Assembly: GCA_021795965.1 (NCBI GenBank)
Contig: JAJYOU010000016.1
Span: 1-52,555, forward strand
DNA length: 52,555 nucleotides
DNA from: Chloroflexota bacterium
GTDB taxonomy: Bacteria > Chloroflexota > Anaerolineae > Anaerolineales > Villigracilaceae
Direction of reading: 5' to 3'
The position numbers were made by a program, and so were the translations under genes. Below are positions 4,226 to 52,555 of the stretch, one piece after another. Within the stretch, counting starts at the first letter, position 1, and each line of letters begins with the position of its first letter. Under the pieces are notes generated by a model, which made no database searches, had not been told where the DNA came from, and saw nothing but the letters and a program-made list of their open reading frames with translations.

Positions 4226-5302
4226 ATGTATATATACGATCTTGATTTTTCAGAAATCGAACAATTAACAAAAAGCTGGAATGAACCTGGTTTCAGAGCG
4301 AAGCAAATTTGGTCAGGATTGTATAAAAACTTCTGGCAATCTGCGTCTGACTTCACGAATTTACCCGGCACATTGCGGGTAAAACTTGCCGAATCGGTTC
4401 AGTTTGATTCCCTCGTCCCTGCAATAAAGCAGGTTTCCTCAGATGGTCGAACCATTAAAACCCTCTTTGCGCTCAAGGATGGTCTTAAAATTGAAGCTGT
4501 CCTGATGCGCTATGACCGCAGGAGGACTCTCTGCATCTCCACTCAGGTCGGCTGCGCGATGGGCTGTACGTTCTGCGCCACCGGACAAATGGGTTTTTCT
4601 CGCAACCTGAGCAGCGGAGAGATTATTGCCCAGGTGATGTATTATGCAAAAATGCTGCATGAAGAAAATGACCGCGTCACGAACATTGTCATCATGGGCA
4701 TGGGGGAACCATTTCATAATTATGAAAATACCATCTCTGCCATCAACAGGTTGAATGATGCGGAAGGTTTTCATTTTGGGGCGAGAAGGTTTACCATTTC
4801 AACTTCGGGTCTCATTCCTGCCATCCGTAAATTTGCAGATGAAAAAAACCAGGTCAACCTAGCGGTCTCGCTGCATGCCTCAGATGATGAATCGAGATCA
4901 AAAATGATGCCGGTGAATAATAAATATCATCTCGAAGACCTGATCCAAGCCTGCCGCTATTATGTTGAGGTAACCGGACGACGCATTACTTTTGAATGGG
5001 CATTAATTAATGGTGTGAATGACACTCCCGAACAAGCCGTGAGATTGGCCAAACTATTGAATGGTCTTTTGTGCCATGTAAATGCCATTCCGCTCAATCC
5101 GACGACGGGATTTACCGGTCAGGCAACAACGCGGGAAAGAGCGGAGATTTTCAAACAAACCCTTGAGCAAAATGGCATCCCGTGTACCATACGTATTCGA
5201 AGGGGAATCGATATTCAAGCTGGCTGTGGTCAACTTGCTTCACAAGAAAAGATCGGAGCTGGCGAGCGACAGGCGAATCATCTTGATCAAGAAGCCGGCT
5301 GA
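4226..5302 (+). CDS. rlmN: Dual-specificity 23S rRNA/tRNA (adenine-C2) methyltransferase RlmN
   Basis: A radical-SAM enzyme that methylates C2 of A2503 in 23S rRNA and of A37 in some tRNAs, using two SAM and a methyl-cysteine intermediate. The start at 4226 is preferred over the longer frame from 4121, which would overlap the upstream gene by 95 bases. With this start the protein has 358 residues. The radical-SAM CX3CX2C motif is Cys110, Cys114, Cys117 in GCAMGCTFCATGQMGF. The NPTTGF segment and the C-terminal DIQAGCGQLA with the methyl-accepting Cys are also present. The absence of a Cfr-like signature and the normal length favour RlmN. It is translated last in the DUF1028-HAD-rlmN set. Confidence 0.95.
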   Translation: MYIYDLDFSEIEQLTKSWNEPGFRAKQIWSGLYKNFWQSASDFTNLPGTLRVKLAESVQFDSLVPAIKQVSSDGRTIKTLFALKDGLKIEAVLMRYDRRRTLCISTQVGCAMGCTFCATGQMGFSRNLSSGEIIAQVMYYAKMLHEENDRVTNIVIMGMGEPFHNYENTISAINRLNDAEGFHFGARRFTISTSGLIPAIRKFADEKNQVNLAVSLHASDDESRSKMMPVNNKYHLEDLIQACRYYVEVTGRRITFEWALINGVNDTPEQAVRLAKLLNGLLCHVNAIPLNPTTGFTGQATTRERAEIFKQTLEQNGIPCTIRIRRGIDIQAGCGQLASQEKIGAGERQANHLDQEAG

Positions 5303-48601: not shown

Positions 48602-49882
48602 TTAGAAGAAAATCGAAATCACTGTGAAGATGGATGCAATGACGATGACCCCTGAGGATATAATTGAAAACCATTTCTGGAAATTATTATTTACATAGTC
48701 TCCCATTAATTCGCTGTCATTCGTCAATTTAATCAGGAAGAAAAATACGAGCGGCAAAGCTATGGCGTTAATAATCTGAGTAATAACTGCAATCTGGAAT
48801 AGTGAGACGTTGGTAAAAATTGACACCAACACAGCGATGACAAGTTGAAGGGTGTAAAGAACATAAAAAGTCTTGCTTTTTTTAAAGGAATCATCCAGAC
48901 TGCCAGAAACGCCAAAAAATTCTGCGTATGCATAGGCGGTTGAAAGCGAGACAACCACCAAACCCATGAAACCCGCATTAAGAATGCCAACAGCGAAGAG
49001 CACACCTGCAAGTTGACCAGCGAATGGCTGGATTGCCATCGCAGCCTGGTCTCCGGATTGAAGATTAATGTGGTTGACGTAGAGGGTGGCGGCGGTTGCG
49101 ACAATCATGAAAAATGAGAAAAAATCAGTCAGGAAAGCGCCCAGGTAAGTTTCAACCTGAGAGAGACCAACCTTACCTTTTTCAATCTTCTTATCGGATG
49201 CGAAACTGCTGATAAAAAATTGTCCCCAAGGGGTAATTGTGGTCCCCAGCACACCCATACCAATGATGAGAAAATCACGCATATAAACATTCGAAAATTC
49301 GACTCCGTGTGGATAAACCAAATTGGACAAGGCGAGTCCCCAATCTGGTCGGGCTTTGAAAGCAGAAAAGATATAAGCCAAAAAAAACACGGTGGCAAGC
49401 AGCATGATATTTTGCGTAAATTTATAATTTCCGCGAATAATGACTAAAAATGACAGCAGAACAATGGCGATGATTGCAGGCACCTGGGGAACATTAAACA
49501 TGGCGCTGGTGGTTTTAACCGCCGATATTTCAGTCACCAAGGTGCCAATGTTGGCAATCAATAAAGCGATGAACATGAAAATTGCAGCCCGAACCCCATA
49601 TTTTTCCCGGATCAGATCTGCCAGACCCCTGCGAGAAATAACGGTTAGCCTCATCCCCATTTCCTGGGTAACTGCCAAAAGCAGGGTAATGATTGGCAGC
49701 AGGAAAAGAATCGGGTAACCAAGCTTCGCTCCTGCAATCGAGTAGGTTGCCACTCCACCGGCATCATTATCCGCCATGGCTGTAATCGTTGCAGGTCCAA
49801 AAACAGTCAAGAAAAGGAGGACCTTTCTCCATAAAATATTATAAAAATGCCGGTTGTTTTTTGTATTGAAATCGAGGCTCAT
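48602..49882 (-). CDS. Atypical Nramp-family metal transporter, probably Mg2+
   Basis: A 426-residue, 11-helix membrane transporter of the Nramp/SLC11 fold. The first helix reads FGPATITAMADNDAGGVATYS, where canonical members have the DPGN metal-binding motif. Helix 6 has TTITPWGQFFISS where the canonical MPH motif is expected. The metal site is thus not that of Mn2+/Fe2+ transporters, and resembles the Nramp-related Mg2+ branch. It follows the PRC/MgtE_N/CBS gene by 20 bases in one operon behind an M-box riboswitch, which strongly supports Mg2+ transport. The substrate remains an inference. Confidence 0.88.
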   Translation of the reverse strand: MSLDFNTKNNRHFYNILWRKVLLFLTVFGPATITAMADNDAGGVATYSIAGAKLGYPILFLLPIITLLLAVTQEMGMRLTVISRRGLADLIREKYGVRAAIFMFIALLIANIGTLVTEISAVKTTSAMFNVPQVPAIIAIVLLSFLVIIRGNYKFTQNIMLLATVFFLAYIFSAFKARPDWGLALSNLVYPHGVEFSNVYMRDFLIIGMGVLGTTITPWGQFFISSFASDKKIEKGKVGLSQVETYLGAFLTDFFSFFMIVATAATLYVNHINLQSGDQAAMAIQPFAGQLAGVLFAVGILNAGFMGLVVVSLSTAYAYAEFFGVSGSLDDSFKKSKTFYVLYTLQLVIAVLVSIFTNVSLFQIAVITQIINAIALPLVFFFLIKLTNDSELMGDYVNNNFQKWFSIISSGVIVIASIFTVISIFF

Positions 49883-49902: not shown

Positions 49903-51159
49903 TTAGCGATAAAATCTTGGAAGTCTTTTCTTCCAGGCAGTGGGGATGATTTTGTCAAGGGCATCATCGGCAGTGACAATTCCCTGAATAACGTTTTCTT
50001 CATTCACAACTGGCACAGCCAGCAAATCATACTTGGTGATAATCTGGGCAACTTCATCCTGATCATCCAATGTGTGAACCGACTTGATCCGGTCTTCCAT
50101 GAAATCGCTTACCAACGCATTTGGATCTGCAAATATCAGCTCGGTCAATGAAAAAACTCCGATCAAGTGTTTTTCAACATCTGTTACATAGACATTGATT
50201 AATGTATCGATATCCGACGCTGTTTCGCGCAGGAGTTTGATGGCTTGTTCTGCCGTGATATTTGGTGGCACGGTGGCGTAATCGGTGGTCATGATTCCGC
50301 CTGCAGAGTCTTCCGGAAATGTCAACAAATGTTTGACATCTTCCGCTTCTTCCTTTTCCATTAACGATACCAGGCGCTGGCTGCGCTCAACGGGCAGCTC
50401 TGCCAGCAGGTCTGCCGCTTCGTCCGGGTCCATTTCCTCCAGGACATCAGCGACTCTCTCATCATCCATGTCTTCCACCAGGCTCGCCTGAAAATCAGTT
50501 TCCACCTGTTCCAGCGCATCTGCCACTTGTTCAACGTTCATGGAATCGAGAAACTGACCTGACTCAAGTTTATTTAAATCACTCAGAATTTCAGCCAGGT
50601 CCGCCGGGTGAAGATCTGCCAGGCTTTCAACTGGCACCCTCAGCCGCATGAATTGATCATGGCGTAAAAGTTCGACGTTATCCCAGGAAATAAAATTTGC
50701 GTTTAATGGGATATGGAGGCCAGATTTAATTTTATTGGCTGCGCGTTCAAGTCCAATCCGGCGCAAAATTCCCATGATTCCCACGTCGACGTTGCTGACA
50801 TACAAAGTTCCATTCACCCTGACCAACTCAAGATCATTCACCCTGATGACTCTTGCTCCATCAGTATCAATAATTTGTTTATCGAGAACGTCGCGAGAAA
50901 GATAAATATCACTTTCGCGTATGGAATATGGCGGGATGTCTTCGACGTGACATTTAAGCGGAATTGCAGGAGCAAAAAGCGACATCACAATTGAATAAGG
51001 AGCTGTCAATTTTCCTTCTTTGCGTTCGATCACGATGGCTTCCACGACCGGATGAGTAAATTCAAGCTTTTCAGCTGCTATTAAATCATCGATTTTCCCG
51101 ACAAAATTTCCATCCAAATCTGTTACTGTACGACCTAAAATTTCGCTTAAGAATGCCAT
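49903..51159 (-). CDS. PRC-barrel, MgtE_N and CBS-pair protein (soluble Mg2+ sensor-like)
   Basis: A 418-residue soluble protein. Two PRC-barrel-like units (about 1-75 and 85-140, each with xxGxxVGxxxDL-type cores) are followed by an MgtE N-terminal helical domain (about 180-283, LHPADLAEILSDL, DMDDERVADVLEEMDPDEAADLLAEL). A CBS pair follows (287-345 and 351-410). The channel domain of MgtE is absent. In MgtE these domains sense cytoplasmic Mg2+ and gate the channel; here they would control the co-encoded Nramp protein. The start at 51159 is fixed by GGAGG five bases before the ATG; the frame to 51249 runs into leader sequence. The operon is controlled by the M-box upstream. Confidence 0.92.
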   Translation of the reverse strand: MAFLSEILGRTVTDLDGNFVGKIDDLIAAEKLEFTHPVVEAIVIERKEGKLTAPYSIVMSLFAPAIPLKCHVEDIPPYSIRESDIYLSRDVLDKQIIDTDGARVIRVNDLELVRVNGTLYVSNVDVGIMGILRRIGLERAANKIKSGLHIPLNANFISWDNVELLRHDQFMRLRVPVESLADLHPADLAEILSDLNKLESGQFLDSMNVEQVADALEQVETDFQASLVEDMDDERVADVLEEMDPDEAADLLAELPVERSQRLVSLMEKEEAEDVKHLLTFPEDSAGGIMTTDYATVPPNITAEQAIKLLRETASDIDTLINVYVTDVEKHLIGVFSLTELIFADPNALVSDFMEDRIKSVHTLDDQDEVAQIITKYDLLAVPVVNEENVIQGIVTADDALDKIIPTAWKKRLPRFYR

Positions 51160-51245
51160 AAGTACCTCCATCCTCTGATTGTCTACTTTACATTTAAAAT
51201 TCCGTCTTGCCACGGAAGATCGACATTCAAACGACAACCAAAAAA

Positions 51246-51302
51246 TCAAATAAAAAACACCACCTTCGCTCTGGCAGCTAGGCGGTGTTTCAACTCAGTC
51301 AT
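51246..51302 (-). CDS. Leader ORF 3 (18 codons) overlapping the second terminator
   Basis: ATG at 51302 to TGA at 51246, peptide MTELKHRLAARAKVVFFI. A GGGAAG sequence lies six bases upstream of the ATG. The second terminator hairpin occupies codons 5 to 17, so translation through it would disturb the hairpin. The amino-acid sequence has no homologue I recognise. It may be a leader peptide or a chance frame. Confidence 0.35.
   Translation of the reverse strand: MTELKHRLAARAKVVFFI
51250..51288 (-). terminator. Second intrinsic terminator in the Mg2+ leader
   Basis: Reverse strand: ACACCGCC (51288..51281) pairs with GGTGGTGT (51264..51257), eight pairs with one G-U wobble and a 16-base loop, followed by TTTTTTATTTG. 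It lies about 90 bases before the MgtE_N gene start. Confidence 0.85.
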
Positions 51303-51326
51303 AAAATTCTTCCCTATTGGATCAAA

Positions 51327-51440
51327 TCAGCACAAAATAACCATGCTATTTGAGAAGAAAGTGCACATTTTCAACTGATGAGACAGATCGCAACTAGGCC
51401 AGCAATAAATTCGACTGGTTCTAAGACTATCAGCGTCCAC
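51327..51440 (-). CDS. Leader ORF 2 (37 codons)
   Basis: GTG at 51440 to TGA at 51327. A strong GGGAAGGAGG ribosome-binding site lies seven bases before the start. The peptide begins MDADSLRTSRIYCW and is rich in Cys and Ser. It lies between the two terminators. The strong ribosome-binding site is better evidence than the sequence, which resembles nothing I know. Confidence 0.45.
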   Translation of the reverse strand: MDADSLRTSRIYCWPSCDLSHQLKMCTFFSNSMVILC

Positions 51441-51466
51441 GCGCAAACCTCCTTCCCAACCGTGCT

Positions 51467-51556
51467 TTAATTTTGGTTGAACCAGGCACGGCGGCAAAAA
51501 TAAACCTCCCGTTTAACAAACAGGAGGCAAGAAAATGGCGAACAAAAATATGCCAT
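51467..51556 (-). CDS. Leader ORF 1 (29 codons) containing the riboswitch terminator
   Basis: ATG at 51556 to TAA at 51467. AAGGAGGTG, close to the ideal Shine-Dalgarno, lies six bases upstream. The peptide begins MAYFCSPFSCLLFVKREVYF. The first terminator hairpin is inside this frame (codons 10 to 18), and its ribosome-binding site is part of the proposed antiterminator. Translation of this ORF should therefore depend on the riboswitch and feed back on termination. Confidence 0.55.
   Translation of the reverse strand: MAYFCSPFSCLLFVKREVYFCRRAWFNQN
51496..51527 (-). terminator. M-box expression-platform terminator
   Basis: Reverse strand: CCTCCTGTTT (51527..51518) pairs with AAACGGGAGG (51514..51505), ten pairs with one G-U wobble and a three-base loop, followed by TTTATTTTT. 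The competing antiterminator is AAACAAGGAGG (51572..51562), which can pair with the same CCTCCTGTTT with one bulged A. Confidence 0.85.
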
Positions 51557-51564
51557 CAACACCT

Positions 51565-51720
51565 CCTTGTTTAGCTTTGACACTGCGCGTCGTAAGGAAT
51601 TAATCCCAGCCACTTTGAATGAAGCCTTAATCCGACTTCACCTGGTCTACCCTTGAGTGTCTCTCGACATTTCAGGGCAATGGCCTGTGTACCTTGCAGC
51701 CGCCTGGCCTAACGAGGGTT
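51565..51720 (-). promoter_or_regulatory. M-box (ykoK) magnesium riboswitch
   Basis: The reverse strand matches M-box landmarks in order: CTCGTTAGG at the 5' side, GCTGCAAGGTAC and GGCCATTGCCC, GAAATGTCGAGAGAC, AAGGGTAGACCAGGTG, GGATTAAGG, and the 3' element GCAGTGTCAAAGCT before AACAAGG. This is the class that folds around several Mg2+ ions and ends transcription when Mg2+ is high. It starts just after the predicted transcript start and precedes the terminator and the Mg2+ transport genes. The alignment is by eye; a covariance-model search would settle the boundaries. Confidence 0.9.
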
Positions 51721-51734
51721 AAATTTGCATTTGC

Positions 51735-51763
51735 AATATACTCCCTTGTGTAAAAATCGTCAA
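51735..51763 (-). promoter_or_regulatory. Predicted promoter of the Mg2+ operon
   Basis: Reverse strand: TTGACG (51763..51758), 17-base spacer, TATATT (51740..51735), one mismatch per box. The start would be near 51728, immediately before the M-box. Confidence 0.8.
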
Positions 51764-52040
51764 GGACGGTTTTTTTGTACTTTTTATATGGATTTTGACC
51801 CAGAAATCAAGCAAAAACCAACCCTATTTAAGAATTATTTTAGCGAAAAGAAGTTAATCTACCGCAATTTTTTTCAACATCCATAACCTACAGCACGACC
51901 AAAATGAAATAATTAGTAAAATAGTTTAAACTTTTCTTCCAATTTACCTTACCAACAGAAAATGAATTAAGCTTTCAGATCCCACAATCCTTTTTCAAAA
52001 ATCATTTTTCCAAAAGCTCGCCAAGTTAAGATTGAATTTT
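51764..52040. other. AT-rich interval without recognised genes
   Basis: Between the Mg2+ operon promoter and the nitroreductase stop no ORF, RNA or convincing hairpin was found. Part of it is the 3' untranslated region of the nitroreductase gene. Confidence 0.5.
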
Positions 52041-52555
52041 TTATCCCATCCAGGTGGTGCGATCTTCAAACGAGGGTCTTTCAGGATAATGGAACTCGGT
52101 CATCTCGGGATATCCAATGTATAAAAATCCGAGCAAATGCTGATCTGGATGGAATCCAAAAAAATTTTTGACTTCCGGGTCGCGGGCGTCATTTCCCGTG
52201 CGCCAGATGGCTCCCAGCCCAAGAGAATGAGCTGCCAGCAATATGTTTTGACCGGCAGCAGCGGTGGCACAAACATTCTCGATATCATCCACTCGAGGAT
52301 CTTCTGGCCTGGCAGTAGCCAGGACAATCACCAACGGGGCACGCAAAGGTTTCAGGCGGGCTTTTTCCAAAAGTTCCTGGGTGGAGTCAGAATAATTTCT
52401 CGCTAGATTTTTTGCCAGGAACTCACCAAATTTTTCCCGGCTTCCCCCGGTGAGAACCACAAATTGCCAGGGTCGAACTTTAAAATGATTAGGCGCCTGC
52501 ACAGCAGCTGATAAAAGTGTATTAATAATTGCTTCCGGGATGGGATCTGGTTTGA
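52041..52555 (-). CDS. Nitroreductase family protein (5' end beyond the window)
   Basis: The reading frame is open to the right edge, and the first visible residues KPDPIPEAIINTLLSAAVQAP match the family's KPDPIPxExxxxLLxAAxxAPS start, so only the N terminus is missing; the GTG at 52502 is internal. PWQFVVLTG, the AAAGQNILLAAHSLGLGAIWRTG segment and the GFLYIGYP ending are typical of the NfnB/NfsA-like FMN enzymes. These reduce nitro compounds or quinones with NAD(P)H. The end at 52041 is the natural stop. Confidence 0.9.
   Translation of the reverse strand, partial: KPDPIPEAIINTLLSAAVQAPNHFKVRPWQFVVLTGGSREKFGEFLAKNLARNYSDSTQELLEKARLKPLRAPLVIVLATARPEDPRVDDIENVCATAAAGQNILLAAHSLGLGAIWRTGNDARDPEVKNFFGFHPDQHLLGFLYIGYPEMTEFHYPERPSFEDRTTWMG

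Follow-up and report, generated by a model that had tools for sequence, protein, structure and literature searches.

An acidic leader ORF and a second terminator behind the M-box of an MgtE_N-CBS/Nramp operon in the Chloroflexota: a probable second Mg2+ checkpoint

Introduction

Why should the leader of an MgtE_N-CBS/Nramp operon, which carries a complete M-box riboswitch with its terminator, contain another terminator shortly before the first gene? This question is raised by a stretch of 52,555 nucleotides (in the following called the window) from a member of the Villigracilaceae (Chloroflexota; Anaerolineae; Anaerolineales), namely positions 1 to 52,555 of contig JAJYOU010000016.1 in assembly GCA_021795965.1. 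An initial annotation had proposed a two-step Mg2+ switch, with RNA sensing at the first terminator (T1), followed by ribosome- or Rho-dependent control at the second (T2). From the comparisons described below it would appear rather probable that two separate Mg2+ checkpoints stand in series before this operon, i.e., the M-box with T1 and then a leader-peptide attenuator with T2, which would work like MgtL or MgtQ of enterobacteria. Likeness is meant here in working, not in descent, since the peptides are too short for homology. The finding is stronger than could be seen from the window alone: the second attenuator is self-standing, and the start of its peptide points to Mg2+ sensing by the ribosome.

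The leader is read on the minus strand in the order promoter, M-box, T1, conserved open reading frame (ORF), T2, MgtE_N-CBS gene and Nramp-type gene:

51735..51763, minus strand: sigma-70-like promoter, TTGACG-N17-TATATT, with 10 of 12 consensus matches
51556..51723, minus strand: M-box Mg2+ riboswitch aptamer (RF00380, model positions 1-169, 120.8 bits)
51504..51528, minus strand: T1, first intrinsic-type terminator (fold compared with shuffles)
51447..51454, minus strand: Shine-Dalgarno (SD) site of the conserved leader ORF, AAGGAGGT, an 8-nt match here and up to 12 nt in relatives
51327..51440, minus strand: conserved leader ORF between T1 and T2, GTG start, 37 amino acids, MDADSLRTSRIYCWPSCDLSHQLKMCTFFSNSMVILC
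51394..51402, minus strand: proposed 5' strand of the antiterminator, inside the ORF, CUGGCCUAG (own-arm pairing test)
51271..51281, minus strand: proposed 3' strand of the antiterminator, T2 5' arm and loop, CUAGCUGCCAG (own-arm pairing test)
51327..51349, minus strand: hairpin at the ORF end, including the stop codon (compensatory changes in seven leaders from the genus and a near relative)
51254..51291, minus strand: T2, second intrinsic-type terminator (fold compared with shuffles; kept in relatives)
49903..51159, minus strand: gene for an MgtE_N-CBS protein of 418 amino acids (MgtE_N and CBS domains)
48602..49882, minus strand: gene for an Nramp family transporter (PF01566), NrmT-like by context

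The promoter, the M-box, both terminators, the MgtE_N/CBS gene and the distances between them had been given correctly in the initial annotation; T2 ends 94 nt upstream of the ATG of the gene at 51159. Operons of mgtE and nramp under M-boxes, the same operon type, were described earlier, and for the proteins of such an operon of Clostridium acetobutylicum, an mgtE fragment with an Nramp gene, Mg2+ transport was shown (PMC4072509).

Results and Discussion

ORF and T2 in operons with and without an M-box

The protein search for the MgtE_N-CBS gene covered 152 genomes of the family, of which 66 had a match, many of these being weak paralogues. The best 30 gene loci were fetched; four (L035, L038, L054, L061) were cut at contig edges, and 26 operons could be judged. 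All 26 possess an ORF with an acidic start, followed by T2. The peptides have Asp2 in 24 and Asp4 in 25 of the operons; near the start their acidic residues are thus neighbours or separated by one residue, as in leaders of the MgtL type. The rule for the ORF, which includes a loose motif, fires in none of 26 reverse strands, in none of 26 stretches further upstream and in 2 of 260 shuffled sequences. A rule free of any motif (best SD match, 20-56 codons) selects the same ORF in 25 of the 26 operons; the exception is the window, where it prefers the ORF at 51556, which is not conserved but whose SD match is longer (9 versus 8).

In every operon the ORF is followed by a terminator of -11 kcal/mol or better, versus 25 of 130 shuffles; the second terminator noted for the window is a conserved element. 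In the window it folds with -19.9 to -22.2 kcal/mol, depending on the stretch folded (z -4.4 to -4.9; none of 200 shuffles was as good). A short ORF with a ribosome site in front of a terminator, the arrangement of an attenuator, is therefore present in 26 of 26 operons, translation being predicted from the sequence.

An M-box stands in front of this module in 18 operons. It is absent from the other eight (L037, L047, L056-L060, L062) in a lax Rfam scan of 33 kb, up to E 0.5. All eight have a promoter match of 10 or 11 of 12 positions before the ORF; the distance is 54-55 nt in four operons, 123 nt in two others and about 200 nt in the remaining two. Since 8 of 26 operons have ORF and T2 but no M-box, the second module is self-standing and no accessory of the riboswitch; within the loci judged, what is constant in this operon is the second switch, and what varies is the M-box. 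A leader starting MDSDS with T2 was also found upstream of a P-type ATPase gene (L026).

Two genomes (G089, G298) carry the module twice: one copy, behind an M-box, precedes a P-type ATPase gene (L026, L027; Pfam assignment for L026 only), and the other, which has no M-box, precedes an MgtE_N-CBS gene (L058, L057). At two further loci (L030, L025) an M-box and a leader starting MDADA or MSADS precede genes for MacB/FtsX-like and ABC permease proteins; the controlled genes may therefore extend beyond known Mg2+ transporters.

The conserved peptide start

The leader ORF of the window (51440-51327) has a strong SD site, and its peptide begins with Met-Asp-Ala-Asp-Ser. Relatives from the family have a long stretch behind the M-box and, in it, a conserved block consisting of an SD site like AAGGAGGT, a short spacer and an ORF with a GTG or ATG start, which begins with Met-Asp-Ala-Asp-Ser or a variant of it. 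The block is present in all 20 loci which have an M-box and a relative of the gene from the first residue on. Among the 30 fetched M-box loci of the family, the leader fits M-[DSN]-[ASDP]-[DSN] in 26; at L063 and L074 a leader of this form is missing, and at L072 and L024 it reads MSSANGD.

The 26 M-box-linked leaders have Asp at codon 2 in 22 and at codon 4 in 25 cases (GAT 21, GAC 4), and Ala at codon 3 in 21 cases, with all four Ala codons in use; these counts are somewhat biased at positions 2-4, as the leaders were chosen by a motif whose second and fourth positions could be D, S or N, and which 4 of 30 loci did not match. Since both Asp codons and all four Ala codons are used, the peptide, and not the RNA alone, seems to be under selection. 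Past about codon 5 the family peptides share little, and their lengths vary from 28 to 54 amino acids (by eye). The strict pattern GGAGGTNNNNGCRTGGACGCNGAY occurred once in 396 genomes of the class, in the window itself; its reach is poor, and variant leaders in sampled relatives (G327, G111) were missed by it.

Three small ORFs with SD sites had been noted in the leader; their starts are probably at 51556, 51440 and 51302, and the site of the third is weak. More than three can be listed in the window, and only the ORF at 51440 is conserved. An SD-preceded start lies near the place of the first ORF in 12 of 25 leaders of relatives and near that of the third in 16 of 25, with unrelated peptides; the ORFs 51556-51467 and 51302-51246 were rejected as conserved elements, no conserved peptide having been found in relatives.

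At two loci from two genomes of one genus (L004, L007; also at L115), about 300-350 nt after the start of the aptamer, the SD site and the codons for DADHKS are kept with ATA at the start position, which suggests a very weak or non-standard start.

Pairing between the ORF and T2

The 5' arm of T2 was folded against the leader in 25 loci, and in 17 of them it pairs with ORF nt 36-65. Compared with dinucleotide-shuffled ORFs the gain in pairing is positive on average (mean z +1.7). A further comparison is that between a leader's own T2 arm and the arms from other genomes. Without the T2 loop the own arm pairs better (25 loci, p 3e-6; the window has rank 2 of 24); with the loop, ORF nt 16-100 being searched, the advantage is -5.3 kcal/mol on average (26 loci, p 7e-8), and in 19 non-redundant loci, of which 18 lie below their mean, p is 5.7e-6. 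As the loci are related, these p values overstate independence, which counts against the mechanism proposed below. In the window, own pairing amounts to -20.3 versus a mean of -11.2 for the arms of other genomes (rank 0 of 25, the first of 26).

The first paired base lies at ORF nt 32-53, directly behind the acidic codons and past a ribosome placed on codons 2-6, the reach of such a ribosome being reckoned from the usual footprint size. An RNAalifold consensus of seven relatives returned the antiterminator helix as its sole helix, with 11 pairs, two of them with compensatory changes; these seven had been picked from 25 because their single folds already showed the pairing. Counts of pairs in this alignment were favourable, if modest, with 81.7% paired, a value reached by 7 of 500 shuffles. 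The hairpin at the end of the ORF (51327-51349) covaries strongly: 6 of its 9 pairs have changed on both sides, and its covariation score was reached by none of 500 shuffles. For this reason the region of the ORF end also seems to matter.

M-box, promoter and first terminator

The first half of the leader is an M-box riboswitch. The search with the RF00380 covariance model, which had been suggested as a check, gave 120.8 bits at 51723-51556 on the minus strand, versus a gathering score of 44 (E 1.5e-26). T1, the expression platform, adjoins the aptamer and folds with -15.2 kcal/mol (z -3.5; 1 of 200 shuffles equally good); its 5' arm could also pair with AACAAGGAGG at the 3' end of the aptamer, which would be the antiterminator (by eye). 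Folding of the entire leader, a further check that had been proposed, gave a structure better than 100 of 100 shuffles (z -4.2). The promoter scan by itself is at chance level, with 4 found versus 5.1 expected; a match of at least 9 of 12 positions lies within 80 nt before the aptamer in 28 of the 30 M-box loci of the family.

A second aptamer between T1 and T2 was considered and rejected: a lax Rfam scan of 51100-51900 yielded the M-box and matches at chance level only, and two overlapping stretches folded no better than shuffles (z 0.3 and 0.9).

Proposed mechanism

In the first stage the aptamer would decide on T1 in the usual way, T1 forming at high Mg2+. A polymerase which has passed T1 would then produce the strong ribosome-binding site, the ORF for Met-Asp-Ala-Asp-Ser and T2. 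With ample Mg2+, ribosomes should pass the acidic start and cover the middle of the ORF; the antiterminator would not form, T2 would fold and transcription would stop. At low Mg2+ the acidic nascent chain could cause ribosomes to stall or drop off within the first codons, thus freeing ORF nt 36-60, approximately, for pairing with the 5' half of T2, and transcription would continue into the transporter genes.

Of the two-step switch suggested initially, with RNA at T1 and then the ribosome at T2, the order of steps gains support from the presence of ORF and T2 in 26 of 26 operons and from the pairing with own sequences; the second step does not depend on the presence of an M-box, the module occurring without one in 8 of 26. 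Rho would not be needed at T2, since this looks like an intrinsic terminator. We infer that the T2 step acts as a switch, driven by translation through the loss of ribosomes at the acidic codons, with Mg2+ as its signal. E. coli ribosomes are stalled or released by N-terminal acidic residues which are adjacent or one apart (PMC11282234), and the spacing in MDADS fits this.

Several observations speak against such a mechanism. MDADS is without proline, and two acidic residues alone need not destabilise ribosomes (PMC11282234). The T2 5' arm pairs elsewhere in the ORF in 3 of 25 loci and outside it in 5; the pairing gain of the window over shuffled ORFs is not significant (17 of 100 shuffles as good), and at one locus (L036) the own arm offers no advantage over the arms of other genomes. 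Covariation of the antiterminator is modest, 5 of 19 pairs having changed on both sides with a score reached by 23 of 500 shuffles, and RNAalifold on the window's own group of seven returned the hairpin at the ORF end instead of the antiterminator. Before MgtE genes, the leaders of L072 and L024 are of the less typical sequence given above, and T2 was not found at L069 and L070, where a wrong ORF had been picked, or at L030.

Acidic leaders behind M-boxes outside the family

Matches to RF00380 were obtained in 28 of 396 genomes of the class, 31 of 152 of the family, 43 of 400 of the phylum, 87 of 239 of the Bacillota, 10 of 139 of the Actinomycetota and 1 of 99 of the Acidobacteriota. They were fetched in part, as 180 loci; an additional one (L195) was left out, since the position of its aptamer could not be fixed. 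As candidate we took, among the small ORFs 185-460 nt after the GTTAG of the aptamer, the one with the best SD site. Candidates were present in 29 of 30 loci of the family, 7 of 24 of the other class members, 10 of 31 of the rest of the phylum, 43 of 83 of the Bacillota, 5 of 11 of the Actinomycetota and the single locus of the Acidobacteriota; at the SD threshold used, 84 of the 150 non-family loci had none. At some M-box loci (L009, L063, L139) the gene follows directly after T1 (by eye).

After deduplication, residue 2 was Asp or Glu in 56 of 87 candidates versus 12 of 138 main genes behind them (p 5e-19); the controls gave 1 of 16 for picks on the reverse strand and 2 of 16 for picks upstream. 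Without the family the numbers were 39 of 63 versus 12 of 122 (p 2e-13). Typical starts are MDDPDADL, MDDPYPG, MESDPG, MDSGPV, MDAGPS, METDPG and MDPDGS; two named cases are MNTDPGG in Sulfobacillus thermotolerans and MTDGESDS in a Candidatus Aminicenantes genome. Acidic or Asp-Pro starts thus stand behind many, not all, M-boxes in the Bacillota, the Actinomycetota and one genome of the Acidobacteriota. An earlier count of acidic ORFs with a looser rule (by group 22/30, 4/24, 6/22, 9/32, 3/11 and 1/1 loci; on the reverse strand 2, 2, 2, 0, 1 and 0) is superseded by this analysis.

In the Bacillota the ORF ends 5-39 nt before the gene start in 20 of 26 placed cases; these leaders may be nearer to MgtQ. 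A model with pairing of the start region for Bacillota leaders was weakly supported (31 loci, p 0.04); it was not retained and is possible at most. Asp-Pro motifs stall ribosomes in Bacillus (PMC11381351). One actinomycetal genome (G1205) contains three M-boxes followed by ORFs starting MSPDDSP, MSPGDSP and MSSSDSP, each with proline at position 7; going by the published description, they look like the upstream ORF (uORF) of mycobacterial Mboxes, and like members of the acidic/proline class.

Tandem M-boxes about 616 bases apart were seen on one contig (G292:C86:4227-4451 and 4843-5067), and L125 has the same spacing.

Alternative explanations

The layout of short ORF, antiterminator and terminator also matches classical amino-acid attenuation, in which a trp-type leader would sense a charged tRNA, e.g., Asp-tRNA, rather than Mg2+, and the Asp codons are indeed kept. 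However, there are just two or three of them near the start; the starts differ across phyla (MDADS, MDAGPS, MDDPDADL, MESDPG, MDSGPV), and what they share is charge and proline rather than one particular amino acid; moreover, several genes behind the leader are of Mg2+ transporter types, which renders this explanation quite unlikely. An attenuator coupled to translation could, on the other hand, answer the general state of translation, such as shortage of ABC-F proteins or EF-P, or ribosome integrity, instead of Mg2+ itself; EttA, YbiT and YfmR help with acidic and Asp-Pro motifs (PMC11282234, PMC11381351). That such leaders were found beside M-boxes and Mg2+ transporter types makes this unlikely, although the search was made mainly there, contexts other than M-box or Mg2+ transporter loci being covered by one strict pattern only.

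The ORF might encode a small functional protein acting on the transporter, with T2 being incidental. This was proposed for a uORF after an Mbox, mycobacterial Rv1805A (PMC12810186), and would be in accordance with the strong SD site and the conserved N-terminus; it is very unlikely in view of how little the peptides share past about residue 5 and how much they vary in length, and of the retention of T2 and pairing together with the ORF. T2 could finally be constitutive or leaky, the ORF merely shielding the leader from Rho, with no second decision being made. The mixed outcome of single-locus pairing tests against shuffles would agree with that, but the own-arm pairing across the 19 non-redundant loci and the occurrence of ORF and T2 in operons lacking an M-box make it highly improbable. 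The reading of the module as a Mg2+-responsive attenuator is therefore preferred here.

Comparison with known systems

As in other M-box (ykoK) leaders, RF00380, a full-length aptamer with its T1 platform stands upstream of Mg2+ transport genes; the window leader differs by its second, self-standing attenuator. MgtL of enterobacteria turns low Mg2+ into mgtA transcription by means of the motif EPDP (PMC11282234). It shares with the present ORF the position before a Mg2+ transporter gene, the short length with an acidic start, and the predicted sense, full translation meaning OFF and abortion ON. Its read-out has been described as Rho-dependent, although PMC11552253 reports no evidence for this in E. 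coli, whereas the proposed read-out here is an intrinsic-type terminator whose 5' half would pair with the ORF; the window leader also has an M-box ahead of the ORF. In Salmonella MgtQ (mgtCBRU), Asp2 and Glu5 lower the translation of the peptide itself, and a stem-loop switch frees translation of the next gene, mgtB (PMC8092293); acidic early residues acting on the ribosome and a stem-loop switch downstream would be common to both, but MgtQ has 8 amino acids, is intergenic and controls translation, not transcription termination.

D'Halluin and colleagues found behind two mycobacterial Mboxes a second conserved SD site and a uORF with a conserved N-terminus, most peptides having proline 7 (PMC12810186). 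The role of the uORF2 peptide is called unclear there, and the peptide mycobacteria-specific. An SD site at the end of the aptamer, a second conserved SD site and a conserved small ORF before the gene are shared by the rv1805A leader and that of the window; the mycobacterial aptamer reportedly works through translation together with Rho. Two sensors in series within one Mg2+-related leader are also present in the tandem attenuators mgtM and mgtP of Salmonella mgtCBR (PMC3641672), but both of these are ORFs, responding to ATP and proline, whereas here an aptamer is combined with an ORF, and each of them would read Mg2+. None of the titles or abstracts in the literature searched reports that an acidic leader peptide serves as a second sensor behind M-boxes, most subscription papers being outside the reach of that search.

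For a wider generalisation the arguments appear evenly balanced: short ORFs with acidic or Asp-Pro starts could be a general second Mg2+ sensor of bacterial Mg2+ transporter leaders, behind M-boxes or replacing them, in Chloroflexota, Bacillota, Actinomycetota and Acidobacteriota. Terminators would then be the read-out in some lineages and unmasking of ribosome sites in others, with MgtL, MgtQ and mycobacterial uORF2 as further cases. If so, the ribosome itself would be the Mg2+ sensor, able to act alone, and the M-box an optional first stage; the textbook riboswitch would often be just half of a switch. Intrinsic ribosome destabilisation, known from a few leaders of enterobacteria, would then extend to several phyla and also act on intrinsic terminators, and a role for the conserved uORF behind mycobacterial Mboxes could be suggested. 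The aptamer and the ribosome may answer different ranges of Mg2+, and the pair may thereby sharpen or widen the response.

Further observations

The MgtE_N-CBS proteins of two relatives (L060, L086) have an N-terminal match to the PRC-barrel, which was unscored in the window protein. A terminator-like hairpin on the plus strand (51752-51774 of the window) overlaps the promoter region. Upstream of the leader, on the minus strand, lies a gene of the nitroreductase family (52041-52553), which is cut by the end of the window.
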